From: Flavobacterium sp. KACC 22763
Lineage (GTDB): Bacteria; Bacteroidota; Bacteroidia; Flavobacteriales; Flavobacteriaceae
Length of the DNA: 64,000 nucleotides
Assembly (NCBI RefSeq): GCF_028736155.1
Contig: NZ_CP117879.1
Coordinates: 4,774,001-4,838,000 of the forward strand
Reading direction: 5' to 3'
Part shown: positions 57,942 through 63,225 of the stretch, one piece after another
How the letters are laid out: every line of letters starts with the position of its first letter
Numbering within the stretch: position 1 is the first letter of the stretch
Notes under the pieces: model-generated
Seen by the model: only the letters and a program-made list of their open reading frames with translations
Database searches by the model: none
Told to the model about the DNA's origin: nothing
Program-made: the position numbers and the translations under genes

Positions 57942-58016
57942 AATAATGTAATAAAAATGTATTAATTTTAAATTTAAGCGAGGAAATGATTGCTAAAAAG
58001 GGCTAAAGGAGAGTAT

Positions 58017-58114
58017 CTGCTTTAGCATTTTTTACTGCTGAAATTAATTTCTCAGCATTCATAACGAAATCATTTCATTATGAAGAGGTTGCAATCAGTT
58101 CAAATTTTTCCTCT
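58017..58114 (-). promoter_or_regulatory. SAM-II-like riboswitch in the metK leader
   Basis: On the minus strand a stem AGAGG/CCTCT (58110-58114 with 58084-58088) encloses a 21-base loop carrying ATTTGAACTGATTGCAA. This matches the SAM-II core AUUU-AAC-UUGCAA. Downstream comes AAAAAATGCTAAAGCAG (58017-58033), matching the SAM-II 3' strand. The loop CUG can pair with the final CAG to form the pseudoknot. Between them are two extra hairpins (58059-58083 and 58036-58057), so this is an enlarged-linker form. A hairpin GCTAAAG/CTTTAGC (58002-58026) would compete with the aptamer. Placement ahead of metK fits SAM feedback. Confidence 0.72.
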
Positions 58115-58124
58115 ATTTCGGGTG

Positions 58125-58154: not shown

Positions 58155-58243
58155 TTAAAGTTCAACTTTTTTTATTTTTTATAGCAGAAATTTAACAGTA
58201 GCATACTATTTTGATAGGGTAATAGAAAATATTTTGTTTTTTG

Positions 58244-58275
58244 TTTGGTCGATTAAAAAATACTTCGCAACTTTG
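58244..58275 (+). promoter_or_regulatory. Promoter and shared operator of the TonB receptor transcript
   Basis: TTTG (58244-58247), 20 bases, then CAACTTTG (58268-58275) fit the promoter consensus with one change. The 22 bases from 58244 (TTTGGTCG, a short variable part, six A's, TACTT) match 20 of 22 at the metY promoter (61416-61437). This goes well beyond the promoter consensus and suggests a shared regulator. Confidence 0.65.
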
Positions 58276-58298
58276 CGCCGTTAAAACAAAAGAAACAA

Positions 58299-58367
58299 AT
58301 GAAATTTACAGTTTGCAATATGATGTCTTGTAAGATGCCGGAGTTATCCGCAGAGACACTATTGTAA
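58299..58367 (+). CDS. Cys/Met-containing leader peptide of the TonB receptor transcript
   Basis: A 22-codon reading frame, MKFTVCNMMSCKMPEL followed by SAETLL, begins 24 bases after the -7 element and ends with TAA. It contains two Cys and four Met. The core NMMSCKM matches NIMCCKM of the leader at 61502, and the DNA there is 19 of 21 identical. The GCA GAG codons near its end (58350-58355) are complementary to the 5' arm of the following terminator. I interpret it as a sensing leader peptide for attenuation, not a functional protein. Translation is inferred. Confidence 0.6.
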   Translation: MKFTVCNMMSCKMPELSAETLL

Positions 58368-58393
58368 TTATTTTTCAATAAATATATAAATAG

Positions 58394-58421
58394 AACCTCT
58401 GCCGAAACGCAGAGGTTTTTT
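58394..58421 (+). terminator. Attenuator terminator ahead of the TonB receptor
   Basis: AACCTCTGC and GCAGAGGTT pair perfectly over nine bases around CGAAAC, followed by eight T's. CTCTGC (58397-58402) can instead pair with GCAGAG at 58350-58355, inside the leader peptide frame. A TATTG/CAATA hairpin (58360-58380) would be nested within that alternative. Confidence 0.8.
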
Positions 58422-58488
58422 TTATGTCAAAATGAAACCTGTAAGATTTTTTTTAAGCCAAAAACAATAATTAATCAGTAAAGAAGAA

Positions 58489-61335
58489 ATGAAGAAAAAT
58501 GTACTAATCGTTTTAGGTCTTGTGACATTTTCAGGACTTTATGCTCAAGACAATAAAAAAGAGCAAGACAGTTTAAAAAACAACGAACTGTCTGAAGTTA
58601 CTATTATTGGATCAAGAAGTAAAAACAGAGTAAAAACAGATGTGCCAGTTCCGGTTGATGTTTTTAACGTATCAGAAATAACAAAAGGAGCACCGCAAAC
58701 GAGCGTAACTCAAATTTTAAACTATGTTGCTCCTTCGTTTACGAGTAACCCAACATCTACAGCAGATGCAACAGACCACGTTGATCCTGCACAATTAAGA
58801 GGATTAGGGCCAGATCAAGTTTTGATTTTAGTAAACGGAAAAAGAAGACACACCAGTGCTTTAGTAAACATAAACGGATCGCCAGGAAGAGGATCTGTTG
58901 GGACGGACCTAAATGCAATTCCATCTTTTGCCATAGAAAGAATTGAAGTTTTAAGAGATGGAGCTGCCGCACAATACGGTTCTGATGCGATTGCGGGAGT
59001 TATTAATATTGTCTTGAAAAAGAATGCTAATTATTTGACTGGAGGAATTCAATACGGAGCAAACCTATCTTCAGGATCAAATAATTTTGAAGGAGGAGCA
59101 GACGGACAAACGGCCCAAATCGATTTAAACTACGGAACCTCATTAGGCAAGCCAGGAAGTTTCTTAAATATTACAGGAACTGCCGTAACAAGACAAGCCA
59201 CAAGCAGAGCAGGAATTAGAAGTAATGCTATTTTTAATGCTTACAATGCAGTAGAAAACAGAGCAGCGCAAGATGGAGTAGAGATTAATTCGCTATTTAG
59301 CAATATTAATACGACTACAAATTCAGCTCAGATTTTGTCATCATTAAAACAATATGCGCCGCAAGTAAGTTATTTTACACCAGCTCAGCAAAACGCTATT
59401 GCATCAGCTTCAACAATTACGCAGATGCAGACGGCTTTAAATTTTGATGTAACTAATAATGAATTAGCTTACAGAGGCCAGCAGAGAAGTGATTATAATA
59501 TGAGTGTTGGTCAGTCGGAATTGGCAGCAGGGCAAGTGTATTTTAATGCTAAATATCCTTTGAGCGAAATCACTTCATTGTATTCTTTTGGAGGTGTTTC
59601 TTATAGAGGCGGTAAATCATATGCATTTAATAGACTCCCAAACGGTTCAGGGACTTTTACGCAAGTGTACCAAAACGGATTCTTGCCAGAAATTGAATCA
59701 AAAATTTTGGATGCTTCTGGAGCAGTTGGAGTAAATACACAATTATTTGGGTTTGATACTGATTTAAGTACCAACTTAGGAACAAACTCTTTTAATTATG
59801 ATGTAAATAATACCATCAATGCAACTTTAGGAACAAACTCTCCATTTAGTTTTGATGCCGGAAAAGTTTCGTTTTTACAAAGCACAACCAATTTAGATTT
59901 TAGTAGAAAATACGATGTTCTTGCTGGACTGAATGTTGCTTTTGGAGGTGAATTCAGATATGAAAACTACCAAATAAAAGCAGGAGAAGAAGCTTCTTAC
60001 GGATTGTATGATGTAAACGGAAATCTGGTTTCAGGAATTCTGCCAAGCAATTCACCATTAATTGTAACTGACTTCTTTGGAAACAAGCGTGGAGCTGGAG
60101 CGCAAGGATTTTCAGGATTCCAGCCTTCAGATGCTAAAGAAAAAGACAGACAAAGTGGTGCTGCTTATGTTGATTTAGAATTGAATGCTACTGAAAAATG
60201 GCTTATAAATGGAGCTGCACGTTATGAAAATTATTCAGATTTTGGAAATACGGTTACGTTTAAATTGGCTTCTCTTTTAAAATTAAATGATAATATCAAT
60301 TGGAGAATTTCTGGACAGACTGGTTTTAGAGCGCCTTCTTTACAGCAAAGATATTTTGAGTCAAGTTCTACTCAGTTTATAAATGGTGCTCCTTATCAAG
60401 TTGGCTATTTTACAAACGATTCGCAAGCAGCAAAAAGTATTGGAATTGAAAGTTTAAAACCAGAAAAATCAAAAAGCATCAGTACAGGATTTACATTCAA
60501 AATTCCTGAAGCTAACATAACCATTGCAACTGATGCTTATTTTACAAGAATCAACGACAGAATTGTATTGTCTGGACAATATTCAAGACCAACAGATGCA
60601 CAGATCGCAGCGGCAACTTCGCCAGAACAGGCTGAGGCGTTGACTTTATTTCAGCAGGCATTTGATTTGAAAGGTGTAGAAAGAGCTTCGTTCTGGACAA
60701 ACGGAATCGATTCTGAAACAAAAGGAATTGATTTGGTGATTTCTCAGAAATATGATGTAATTCAAGATTTCACAATTAGAAACGATTTTGCATTAAGCTT
60801 TAATGAAACCAAAAGAGTGGGCGATTTGCATATTCCGCAATCAATCGTTAATGCAGGAGGAGAACCTTATATTTATTCTTTCTTTCCAGAATCAAGCCGA
60901 GTATATTTAGAAGAAGCTATTCCGAAATTGAAAGCCAATTTGATGACAACTTTCAATATTAAAAAACTGGATATTTATTTAAGAAACAGCTATTTCGGAA
61001 AAGTTACAGATCCAGGAGCAACAGATGTTAATCTAGACGGATTTTCTTCTGTGTACGAGCATCCAGAATACAGCGCAAAATTGGTTACCGATTTATCTTT
61101 AGGATATCAGATCAACGAGCATTTGAGAGCAACAATTGGGGTTAATAATATAGGAGATGTTTATCCGGATAGAAATAATCCTGCAACTCCTGCCTTTACA
61201 AACACAACGCCAACTTTGTCGCCAGCGCCAAGTACAGATTTAACAAATGCGAATCAGTTTGCGTATTCAAGAGCAGTTTCTCAATTCGGATTAAACGGAA
61301 GATTTGGTTTTGCCCGATTGAGCTTTAAATTTTAA
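58489..61335 (+). CDS. TonB-dependent receptor under attenuator control
   Basis: The 948-residue receptor has a signal peptide ending near LYAQ. The plug starts directly after it with SEVTIIGSRSKNRVKTDVPV and continues through QLRGLGPDQVLILVNGKRRH and IERIEVLRDGAAAQYGSDAI. The barrel ends in FGFARLSFKF. No carboxypeptidase-like or STN domain is present. Its leader peptide, terminator and promoter resemble those of the metY transcript. That points to import of a sulfur-containing compound or a related nutrient, inferred from regulation only. No SusD-like or other partner is adjacent. Confidence 0.9.
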   Translation: MKKNVLIVLGLVTFSGLYAQDNKKEQDSLKNNELSEVTIIGSRSKNRVKTDVPVPVDVFNVSEITKGAPQTSVTQILNYVAPSFTSNPTSTADATDHVDPAQLRGLGPDQVLILVNGKRRHTSALVNINGSPGRGSVGTDLNAIPSFAIERIEVLRDGAAAQYGSDAIAGVINIVLKKNANYLTGGIQYGANLSSGSNNFEGGADGQTAQIDLNYGTSLGKPGSFLNITGTAVTRQATSRAGIRSNAIFNAYNAVENRAAQDGVEINSLFSNINTTTNSAQILSSLKQYAPQVSYFTPAQQNAIASASTITQMQTALNFDVTNNELAYRGQQRSDYNMSVGQSELAAGQVYFNAKYPLSEITSLYSFGGVSYRGGKSYAFNRLPNGSGTFTQVYQNGFLPEIESKILDASGAVGVNTQLFGFDTDLSTNLGTNSFNYDVNNTINATLGTNSPFSFDAGKVSFLQSTTNLDFSRKYDVLAGLNVAFGGEFRYENYQIKAGEEASYGLYDVNGNLVSGILPSNSPLIVTDFFGNKRGAGAQGFSGFQPSDAKEKDRQSGAAYVDLELNATEKWLINGAARYENYSDFGNTVTFKLASLLKLNDNINWRISGQTGFRAPSLQQRYFESSSTQFINGAPYQVGYFTNDSQAAKSIGIESLKPEKSKSISTGFTFKIPEANITIATDAYFTRINDRIVLSGQYSRPTDAQIAAATSPEQAEALTLFQQAFDLKGVERASFWTNGIDSETKGIDLVISQKYDVIQDFTIRNDFALSFNETKRVGDLHIPQSIVNAGGEPYIYSFFPESSRVYLEEAIPKLKANLMTTFNIKKLDIYLRNSYFGKVTDPGATDVNLDGFSSVYEHPEYSAKLVTDLSLGYQINEHLRATIGVNNIGDVYPDRNNPATPAFTNTTPTLSPAPSTDLTNANQFAYSRAVSQFGLNGRFGFARLSFKF

Positions 61336-61501: not shown

Positions 61502-61582
61502 ATGAAAACAATAGCAAAAGGAAATATAATGTGTTGTAAGATGATGCAAATGTGCATCCCAATTTGCTGTTGCCAAAAGTGA
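61502..61582 (+). CDS. Cys/Met-rich leader peptide of the metY transcript
   Basis: A 26-codon frame starts MKTIAKGN, continues IMCCKMMQMC and ends IPICCCQK before TGA. Six Cys and five Met in 26 residues, including CC and CCC runs, lie ahead of a sulfur amino acid synthesis gene. The core NIMCCKM matches the leader at 58299. The last codons (TGC CAA AAG) supply CCAAAAG (61573-61579), complementary to CTTTTGG (61618-61624) in the 5' arm of the terminator. Stalling at Cys or Met codons would leave that strand free and let transcription continue. Cysteine-responsive leader peptides of this kind are known in mycobacteria; this one is inferred. Confidence 0.75.
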   Translation: MKTIAKGNIMCCKMMQMCIPICCCQK

Positions 61583-61612: not shown

Positions 61613-61648
61613 AAGCCCTTTTGGTCGCCATCCGAAAGGGCTTTTTTA
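61613..61648 (+). terminator. Attenuator terminator ahead of the metY unit
   Basis: AAGCCCTTT and AAAGGGCTT pair perfectly over nine bases around a 13-base loop, followed by a T-run. The competing pairing uses CCAAAAG from the leader peptide frame, with the hairpin TTATAG/CTATAA (61598-61614) nested inside it. Confidence 0.85.
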
Positions 61649-61673: not shown

Positions 61674-61868
61674 ATGAATACACTAGATATAAATACAATC
61701 GCATTTCAATACTTATTAAGAGATAATAATTCGGAAGAGACATCAGCTGAAACTCCAAAATATGATCCTGCCCAGCATATAAAAACGCAGAAATCATTAC
61801 TGTTTCATTTATATGACCTTGAAGAAGAAGCTGAAGATATTTTAGCTTCAATCAATTTCAAAAATTAA
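61674..61868 (+). CDS. Small acidic protein between the attenuator and metY
   Basis: The 64-residue protein begins MNTLDINTIAFQYLLRD and is strongly acidic (DNNSEETSAETPKYDP, then YDLEEEAEDILASIN). It has no signal peptide or membrane segment. I recognise no family. As the first full gene after the attenuator and 52 bases ahead of metY, it is probably co-expressed with it and may be linked to sulfur amino acid synthesis. It contains no Cys, and its only Met is the start, which would suit expression under Cys/Met shortage. Confidence 0.6.
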   Translation: MNTLDINTIAFQYLLRDNNSEETSAETPKYDPAQHIKTQKSLLFHLYDLEEEAEDILASINFKN

Positions 61869-61920: not shown

Positions 61921-63225
61921 ATGAGTACACAAAAATTTGCAACAAACGCATTACACGCAGGACACGACGTAACTAAAAACGCAGGAACTAGAGCCGTGCC
62001 AATTTACCAGACATCATCATATGTATTTAATAATGCAGATCATGCTGCCAATTTATTTGGTCTTGCTGAAGCAGGATTTATTTATACAAGATTAAATAAC
62101 CCGACAAACGATATTTTAGAGCAGCGACTGACGGCGCTCGAAGGCGGAATTGGAGCTGTAGTAACCGCTTCTGGAGCATCTGCAATTTCAACAACTTTAT
62201 TGACTTTGCTAAAAGCAGGAGATCATATCGTAGCTTCAAACAGTTTATACGGAGGAACGTATAATCTTTTAAAAGTTACGTTGCCAAGATTAGGAATTAC
62301 AACCACATTTGTAGATCCTTCAAAAGCTGAAAATTTTACCAAAGCAGCAAAAGAAAACACAAGAGCTTTCTTTGTTGAGTCTCTTGGAAATCCAAAATTA
62401 GACGTACTAGACTTAAAAGCAATTTCGGCAGAAGCCAAAGCATTCAAAGTACCATTTATAGTAGACAATACAGTTGCGACACCTTATTTATTAAACCCAA
62501 TTAAATATGGTGCCGATATTGTAATTCACTCCTTAACAAAATATATCGCAGGAAACGGAACTTCATTAGGAGGCGTTATCATTGATGCTGGAAACTTTGA
62601 TTGGGCAAACGGAAAATTCCCTGAATTTACCGAACCATCTGCAGGATACCACGGATTAGTATATCACGAAGCCTTAGGAAATGCAGCTTTTATTGCAAAA
62701 GCTCGAATTGAAGGGCTGCGTGATTTTGGTGCTGCTTTGAGTCCATTTAATGCTTTTCAGATTATTCAGGGACTAGAAACACTTCCAATTCGAATCAAGA
62801 AACACAGTGAAAATGCTTTGGCTCTAGCTGAATGGTTAGAAAAACAAGATGAGGTGGTTTGGGTAAATTATCCAGGTCTAAAATCGAATAAATATAATGC
62901 TTTGGCTAAAGAATATCTTCCTGAAGGGCAAAGCGGCATTATCACGTTCGGATTAAAAGGAGGTTTTGATGCGGCTAAAAAAGTGGTAGATGACACAAAA
63001 TTGTTCTCTCTGCTAGCGAATATTGGTGACACAAAATCACTGATTATTCACCCAGCAAGTACAACACACCAGCAATTGACAGAAGCAGAACAAATAGAAA
63101 CAGGAGTTTCTAAAGATTTGATTCGTCTGTCTGTTGGAATTGAAGATATCGAAGATTTAATTGCAGATCTGCAAACTGTTTTTGAGAGCGTTTCGCTTTC
63201 TCAATTCAGCATCAATAAAAATTAG
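61921..63225 (+). CDS. metY: O-acetylhomoserine sulfhydrylase (aminocarboxypropyltransferase)
   Basis: MetY makes homocysteine from O-acetylhomoserine and sulfide, the direct-sulfhydrylation route to methionine. The 434-residue PLP enzyme has the Cys/Met metabolism family motifs: YQTSSYVFNNADHAANLFGL, YTRLNNPTNDILEQRLTALE, SNSLYGGTYNLLKVTLPRLG and the PLP lysine in IHSLTKYIAGNGTSLGG. The closing HPASTTHQQLTEAEQ and SVGIEDIEDLIADL are typical. The length favours MetY over the shorter MetB/MetC types. It is controlled by the upstream leader-peptide attenuator. Confidence 0.95.
   Translation: MSTQKFATNALHAGHDVTKNAGTRAVPIYQTSSYVFNNADHAANLFGLAEAGFIYTRLNNPTNDILEQRLTALEGGIGAVVTASGASAISTTLLTLLKAGDHIVASNSLYGGTYNLLKVTLPRLGITTTFVDPSKAENFTKAAKENTRAFFVESLGNPKLDVLDLKAISAEAKAFKVPFIVDNTVATPYLLNPIKYGADIVIHSLTKYIAGNGTSLGGVIIDAGNFDWANGKFPEFTEPSAGYHGLVYHEALGNAAFIAKARIEGLRDFGAALSPFNAFQIIQGLETLPIRIKKHSENALALAEWLEKQDEVVWVNYPGLKSNKYNALAKEYLPEGQSGIITFGLKGGFDAAKKVVDDTKLFSLLANIGDTKSLIIHPASTTHQQLTEAEQIETGVSKDLIRLSVGIEDIEDLIADLQTVFESVSLSQFSINKN

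Follow-up and report, generated by a model that had tools for sequence, protein, structure and literature searches.

What controls the gene for a large TonB-dependent receptor that lies among sulfur amino acid genes in Flavobacterium sp. KACC 22763? The window analysed here is a 64,000-nucleotide stretch of contig NZ_CP117879.1. Within it, a 22-codon reading frame, MKFTVCNMMSCKMPELSAETLL* (58299-58367, + strand, translated from the DNA; leader 1), is followed by an intrinsic terminator (58394-58423, +) and then by the receptor gene (58489-61335, +; 948 aa; Pfam Plug and TonB_dep_Rec_b-barrel), the presumed target of leader 1. This order of elements had been described in the initial annotation of the locus and is borne out. 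The putative control codons of leader 1, codons 6-13 (C N M M S C K M; 58314-58337, +), include five Cys or Met. On the basis of the sequence, we propose that 58299-58423 is very probably a ribosome-mediated attenuator, through which the receptor gene would be transcribed only under a shortage of charged Met- or Cys-tRNA. Composition alone does not reveal which of the two amino acids is sensed, or if both are.

Architecture of leader 1 and its predicted RNA switch

The frame of leader 1 overlaps two mutually exclusive predicted RNA hairpins. A 1:2 hairpin, predicted by a minimum free energy fold (58313-58367, +), is the putative anti-antiterminator. Segment 2 (58350-58362, +) consists of GCAGAG (58350-58355) and CTAT (58359-58362), and segment 3 (58390-58402, +) consists of ATAG (58390-58393) and CTCTGC (58397-58402). 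The 3:4 hairpin is the terminator, recognized from its sequence as AACCTCTGC-CGAAAC-GCAGAGGTT with a run of eight T. GCAGAG is complementary to CTCTGC in the terminator arm, exactly as the initial annotation had stated, and the region 58285-58425 folds with a z of -5.8.

Upstream of the frame, a promoter-like site, TTG(N20)CAACTTTG (58245-58275, +), was found by pattern match and is read here as a promoter of the Bacteroidota -33/-7 type. The pattern TTG-N16-23-[TC]AnnTT[TC]G, sought within 80 nt 5' of leader 1, occurs at 27 of 28 receptor loci versus 56 of 2000 random 80-mers from the window; the match in G062 is a different site and probably arose by chance. The same pattern precedes leader 1 at 26 of 54 metY loci that lack the receptor.

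How would such a leader operate? We infer translation of the frame, ribosome stalling, a response to sulfur amino acid supply and the direction of control as follows. A ribosome would trail RNA polymerase along the leader 1 frame. With ample Met and Cys, the ribosome would reach the stop codon and cover GCAGAG, so that the terminator would fold and transcription would stop. With scarce Met or Cys, the ribosome would stall at codons 6-13 and leave segment 2 free. The free GCAGAG would then pair with CTCTGC, block the terminator and permit transcription of the receptor gene.

The spacing of the control codons is consistent with this scheme. Counted from its first base, the last Cys/Met codon stands 14-15 nt ahead of segment 2 in 65 of 70 GCAGAG-type leaders, and the five exceptions measure 6, 17, 18, 21 and 31 nt; the Cys codon at 6 nt belongs to one receptor leader (by sequence that of G175). 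The ribosome was given a footprint that ends 12 nt beyond the start of the A-site codon, and the transcript was folded in silico through segment 3 for the 70 leaders except one, which was dropped because its segment 3 went unrecognized. When the ribosome is placed at the last Cys/Met codon, the antiterminator is predicted in 27 of 28 receptor leaders, one failing the fold, and in 41/41 metY leaders. When the ribosome is placed at the stop codon, the antiterminator is predicted in none (0/28 and 0/41). Folded at full length, 28/28 receptor and 39/41 metY leaders show the terminator. For leader 1 of the window, the predicted change from one fold to the other falls between codons 14 and 15, shortly after Met13. 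Folded without a ribosome, the truncated transcript adopts the antiterminator in 20/28 receptor and 19/41 metY leaders (39/69 in total), and thus an untranslated "off" state like that of trp is not predicted.

Reading frame, pairing and conservation at receptor loci

Is the short frame read as a peptide? Cys and Met make up 39.7% of codons 2-13 and 3.3% of the remaining frame in 82 class-1 leaders, compared with 16.8% and 1.7% in the other two frames of the front part. Because the leaders were chosen for at least three Cys/Met, it is the front-to-rear contrast inside the frame that is informative. The Cys codons of the leaders are TGT (105) and TGC (67), and one Met codon is missing as an in-frame gap of 3 nt in 13 of 31 aligned leaders. 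The rear of the frame behaves differently: among the 68 of 82 leaders that could be classified by hexamer, the GCAGAG-type segment is read in frame 0 (S-A-E type) in 49 and in frame 2 (P-Q-R/S type) in 19. Segment 2 is thus conserved as RNA, and the C-terminal peptide is not.

These observations bear on the extremely improbable explanation that the terminated leader transcript, some 150 nt long, acts as a regulatory small RNA and that its short frame is incidental. A short transcript with a strong terminator would indeed be released, and the locus has a weak, sub-threshold Rfam likeness to small RNA models (OmrA-B), but the in-frame indel of 3 nt and the crowding of Cys/Met codons into the front part of frame 0 suggest that translation matters. 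No Rfam covariance model, including the SAM riboswitch models, reaches its gathering score within 58180-58490. Nine sub-threshold matches were set aside, the best being OmrA-B at 26.5 bits (gathering 40); Phe_leader, at 21.1 bits against a gathering score of 55, was likewise not used.

The pairings of the proposed attenuator are conserved. Pairs were counted in an alignment of 31 distinct leaders, of which 27 represent the 28 receptor genomes (two being identical) and four come from receptor-less genomes. The terminator is paired in 99.6% of 258 cells, with two-sided changes at two pairs and with one of its nine pairs gapped in 21 rows. The antiterminator, GCAGAG/CTCTGC plus CTAT/ATAG, is paired in 98.1% of cells with one two-sided change, and the 1:2 hairpin is paired in 96.5% of cells with none. 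A TATTG/CAATA hairpin, which the initial annotation had placed between the antiterminator arms, is present in the window; as a conserved part, however, it was rejected, with 77.2% of cells paired and its second pair formed in 4 of 30 sequences. The CTAT/ATAG helix (58359-58362/58390-58393) is conserved instead (96.0% of cells).

Since close relatives vary little, stronger covariation evidence comes from more distant leaders. Both sides of the antiterminator have changed in G062 (GTAGGG/CCCTGC) and in other genera, as GCAGCG/CGCTGC at four loci (L163, L166, L172 and L174) and GCAGGG/CCCTGC at a fifth (L161). Flavobacterium leaders also carry TGTGGG/CCCACA (G089, G010, G165, G146 and G044) and GCGGG/CCCGC (G105 and G046). 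At the named receptor loci, the segment 2 hexamer is pairable at all six positions in 69 of 70; the remaining one, L260, was missed by the hexamer pattern and pairs by eye with the use of G-U pairs. When leaders were set against terminators of the other class, the mean duplex energy weakened: in 69 leaders it went from -11.9 to -7.6 kcal/mol, and in 13, one of them a stray call in G017 that was later dropped, it went from -10.4 to -7.8 kcal/mol. Raw duplex energy is too weak a test against shuffles, given that more than two of 50 shuffles matched the duplex in 38/82 leader-1 and 58/76 leader-2 cases, and therefore the class swaps and the pair counts were used. The leader 1 family thus possesses a predicted antiterminator that would exclude the terminator and is backed by covariation.

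Leader 1 is also kept in front of its receptor. Within the genus, a receptor 82-100% identical to that of the window occurs in 28 of 199 genomes (one split, one partial), followed by a next tier at about 57%. All 28 receptors lie a few kb upstream of metY on the same contig, and leader 1 with its terminator is present at 28/28 of these loci (in G096 via locus L028). Only the window's own receptor and one match at 52% pass an E value of 1e-250 among 249 sampled genomes of the family. A word-based scan of named genomes recovered 74 receptor loci, of which 70 are 82-100% identical and four, from Chryseobacterium, are 51-54% identical. The 70 orthologues, 66 titled Flavobacterium and four with other or broader titles, overlap the set of 28 genus genomes; the nearest named match is Flavobacterium sp. 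LHD-85, and the window's own records may be absent from the listing. The motif proposed in the initial annotation was put to a refutation test at these loci, and a Cys/Met-rich leader with at least three Cys/Met and a terminator was found at 70/70.

The more distant receptors, 51-57% identical, were inspected upstream at seven loci. No leader is present within 450 nt of the four Chryseobacterium receptors (L272-L275, 0/4), and no leader was called upstream of L062 or L063. In L154, a frame with three Cys/Met (MEKTFISFCMFRCF) lies 1166 nt before the aligned start and was taken for chance.

The tandem leaders before metY

Where does leader 1 come from? Downstream of the receptor gene stands a second leader frame, MKTIAKGNIMCCKMMQMCIPICCCQK* (61502-61582, +, translated from the DNA; leader 2). 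Its segment 2, CCAAAAG (61573-61579, +), is complementary to CTTTTGG (61618-61624) of an intrinsic terminator, AAGCCCTTTTGG...CCGAAAGGGCTT with a T run (61613-61647, +), and the gene behind it is metY, encoding O-acetylhomoserine sulfhydrylase (61921-63225, +; TIGR01326, E 3.7e-194). The two leaders therefore have the same architecture with different pairing sequences, which agrees with the initial annotation. In the fold of leader 2, the antiterminator can form with the ribosome as far as codon 20 but no longer at codon 21 or beyond. A further frame, of 64 codons, MNTLDINTIAFQYLLRDNN... (61674-61868, +), was read by eye in the stretch from leader 2 to metY; of 90 regions upstream of metY, 15 gave a resembling peptide in a loose motif search.

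The likeness of the two leaders centres on a 21-nt core. The 21-mers at 58317-58337 and 61523-61543 differ at two positions, which confirms the identity of 19 in 21 reported earlier. A degenerate form of this 21-mer, allowing up to three mismatches, matches the window at leaders 1 and 2 alone, while two or more matches arose in 3 of 100 shuffles; without mismatch, it has two sites in the 5.56-Mb genome, again the two leaders. A scan of the entire window for ATG frames no longer than 50 codons that contain three or more further Cys/Met and precede a terminator gave three calls, two of which are leaders 1 and 2. Across the genus, the core with at most one mismatch has 43 sites in 32 of 199 genomes. 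Sorted by context and the metY survey, 31 of these are leader 1 or 2 and eight resembled other sequence; four yielded no locus and stayed outside the sorting.

The upstream regions of 90 of 115 metY matches, found in 113 of 199 genomes, show that metY is the usual gene behind both leaders. Of the 62 metY loci without a receptor, 43 have tandem leaders, 11 have leader 1 only, six have leader 2 only and two have neither; G028 is tallied under leader 1 only, with a second leader visible that the filter misfiled. The spacer from hairpin 1 to the start of leader 2 in the 43 tandems is 29-60 nt in 27, 61-69 nt in six and 94-185 nt in 10. The short spacers are judged too short for another promoter, and the tandem leaders there would thus act in series. 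Among the best 28 loci of 170 genomes with matches in other genera, 26 had upstream sequence, and both leaders are found at five, one leader at two and none at 19.

In the receptor clade, leaders 1 and 2 are separated by the receptor gene, which takes the place of the spacer. A class-2 leader precedes metY in 27 of 28 receptor genomes. At the named loci, a second leader was called downstream in 67 of 74, two of which are false calls in Chryseobacterium, leaving 65 of 70 orthologues; in L222 the leader 2 frame is seen by eye with its terminator uncalled, which raises the count to 66/70. The remaining orthologues, L249, L251, L254 and L260, gave no leader 2 call.

Leader 1 is probably the first member of an old tandem pair before metY, rather than a copy set in front of the receptor. 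A recent copying of leader 2 is unlikely because both leaders stand in tandem across genera; an old duplication is unproven. The leader 1 and leader 2 regions reach a local alignment score of 59 against a shuffle maximum of 48 (n = 200), and the alignment consists mostly of A/T-rich matches plus the 21-nt core, so homology outside the core is weak. On a metY tree of 48 rows, receptor presence changes nine times, with at least six changes forced by well-supported branches, and it is therefore likely that the receptor was gained and later lost more than once, or that it spread by recombination. Two receptor-less genomes, G049 (L027) and G083 (L029), have a receptor-type leader 1 directly before leader 2; the receptor was likely lost there and the tandem pair left behind.

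Could leader 1 be a mere relic of metY control, with the receptor expressed anyway by read-through or from a promoter in the 65-nt gap behind the terminator? Receptor-less relatives do have leader 1 in front of metY, and the receptor is patchy on the metY tree. However, the frame, the terminator and the pairing segment 2 are kept before the receptor in 70/70 orthologues, and inspection by eye finds no TTTG/TAnnTTTG pair in the 65 nt between terminator and receptor in the window. The relic explanation is highly improbable. We favour, with moderate confidence, a broader reading of the attenuators, in which Flavobacteriaceae control the synthesis of sulfur amino acids through two serial Met/Cys attenuators on one transcript and one Flavobacterium clade has the receptor between them. 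In this clade, a single ribosomal gauge of Met/Cys supply would then set import by way of leader 1 and the production of homocysteine by way of leader 2. Immediately 3' of the receptor gene, a perfect 14-bp inverted repeat (61342-61355/61371-61384) was noticed by eye; it is a possible two-way transcription end, which would separate the receptor and metY transcripts.

Sulfur neighbourhood, known systems and biological meaning

The metK gene is divergent from leader 1 and has a SAM-II riboswitch (58012-58119, -). Beyond the window lie a metX-like gene (179.7 bits to TIGR01392, short of the curated cut-off of 500) that follows a SAM-I (S-box) riboswitch (L202:1575-1682) and an aspartate kinase/homoserine dehydrogenase gene. 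Together with metY, these neighbours mark the locus as a sulfur amino acid cluster. The cluster carries four RNA controls, namely the two leaders and the SAM-II and SAM-I riboswitches. About 9 kb downstream of metY, an Rrf2-family regulator (L202:8372-8782) resembles CymR, a regulator of cysteine metabolism, with a score of 78.2 bits against the CymR cut-off of 195. Elsewhere in the window, an S15-Flavobacteria ribosomal protein leader (RF03161; 10018-10084, -) is an ordinary known element.

What does the receptor import? The proposed regulation suggests a sulfur source as substrate. The plug domain resembles siderophore receptors, the sole similarity from a PDB sequence search, and an AlphaFold model built on 11 sequences has a mean pLDDT of 40.4 and is of poor quality.

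The attenuators of the trp/his type, such as E. coli trpL and hisL, combine a frame of control codons, 1:2, 2:3 and 3:4 segments and an intrinsic terminator. Leader 1 resembles them in its short control-codon frame, its segments, its terminator and the distance from the control codons to segment 2. It departs from them in its Cys/Met control codons, in an outer-membrane receptor as target, in the tandem attenuators found before metY in relatives and in that termination of the untranslated transcript is not predicted. Of the two genes behind the leaders, metY belongs to the metabolism of the amino acids presumed to be sensed. The SAM-II (RF01726) and SAM-I (RF00162) elements represent RNA control in the same cluster, but they are aptamers, not leader peptides.

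Could the nascent peptide itself be the sensor? A Cys/Met-rich nascent peptide that senses a metal (Cu(I)) or redox state and arrests the ribosome as in CruR, with codon supply unsensed, is a very unlikely explanation of leader 1. C-N-M-M-S-C-K-M has the look of a metal-binding sequence, and NMMSCKM is nearly invariant in 17 full-length receptor leaders. A copper-sensing upstream frame before a TonB transporter is moreover known: the Bordetella report describes the CruR/DUF2946 frame, which responds to copper through CXXC and a RAPP arrest motif and controls Rho-dependent termination (PMC9426467). Leader 1 is like CruR in being an upstream frame before a TonB-dependent transporter with, presumably, control after transcription start. 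Leader 1 is unlike CruR in having 22 residues without CXXC or RAPP, an intrinsic terminator and a presumed response to codon supply (PMC9426467). Furthermore, 41 metY leaders keep the content but not the order of Cys/Met, with positions 9-12 varying among C, M, K, R, S and other residues. Most often the target is metY, and the rule at the DNA level is the distance from the Cys/Met codons to segment 2. These features argue against a sensing peptide.

Other leaders with short frames have been described in bacteria near and far. In F. psychrophilum, of the same genus, "strong clues" for leader-peptide attenuation before amino-acid biosynthesis operons are reported in a section that names neither a met gene nor a receptor in this context, and the supplement of that paper may contain a metY entry (PMC9723704). 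Cys-codon leader frames precede sulfur amino acid genes in Mycobacterium and related Actinobacteria; no conserved terminator hairpin was found in the mycobacterial cases, whereas leader 1 has a terminator and an antiterminator and also contains Met (PMC1262725). Long 5' leaders with short frames are mentioned for Bacteroides thetaiotaomicron in another study (PMC7366714). The initial annotation regarded sulfur-amino-acid control of an outer-membrane receptor by a leader peptide as undescribed. Leader control as such already has a precedent at a TonB transporter, in the response to copper (PMC9426467). Neither a sulfur-amino-acid leader before a TonB receptor nor a tandem Met/Cys leader pair was found in the literature searched, which held few subscription papers and no supplements.

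If the proposed attenuator is true, leader-peptide attenuation, best known in biosynthetic operons, would extend to an outer-membrane receptor. The relatives of this locus form a natural series, comprising a single leader, two leaders 29-60 nt apart, a slot of 94-185 nt, a receptor in the slot and a receptor gone. This series makes testable the idea that a gene can come under new regulation by settling between two attenuators. Should the sulfur response hold, a large uncharacterized TonB receptor of Flavobacterium would be linked to sulfur acquisition, and its regulation would hint at its role ahead of its substrate.
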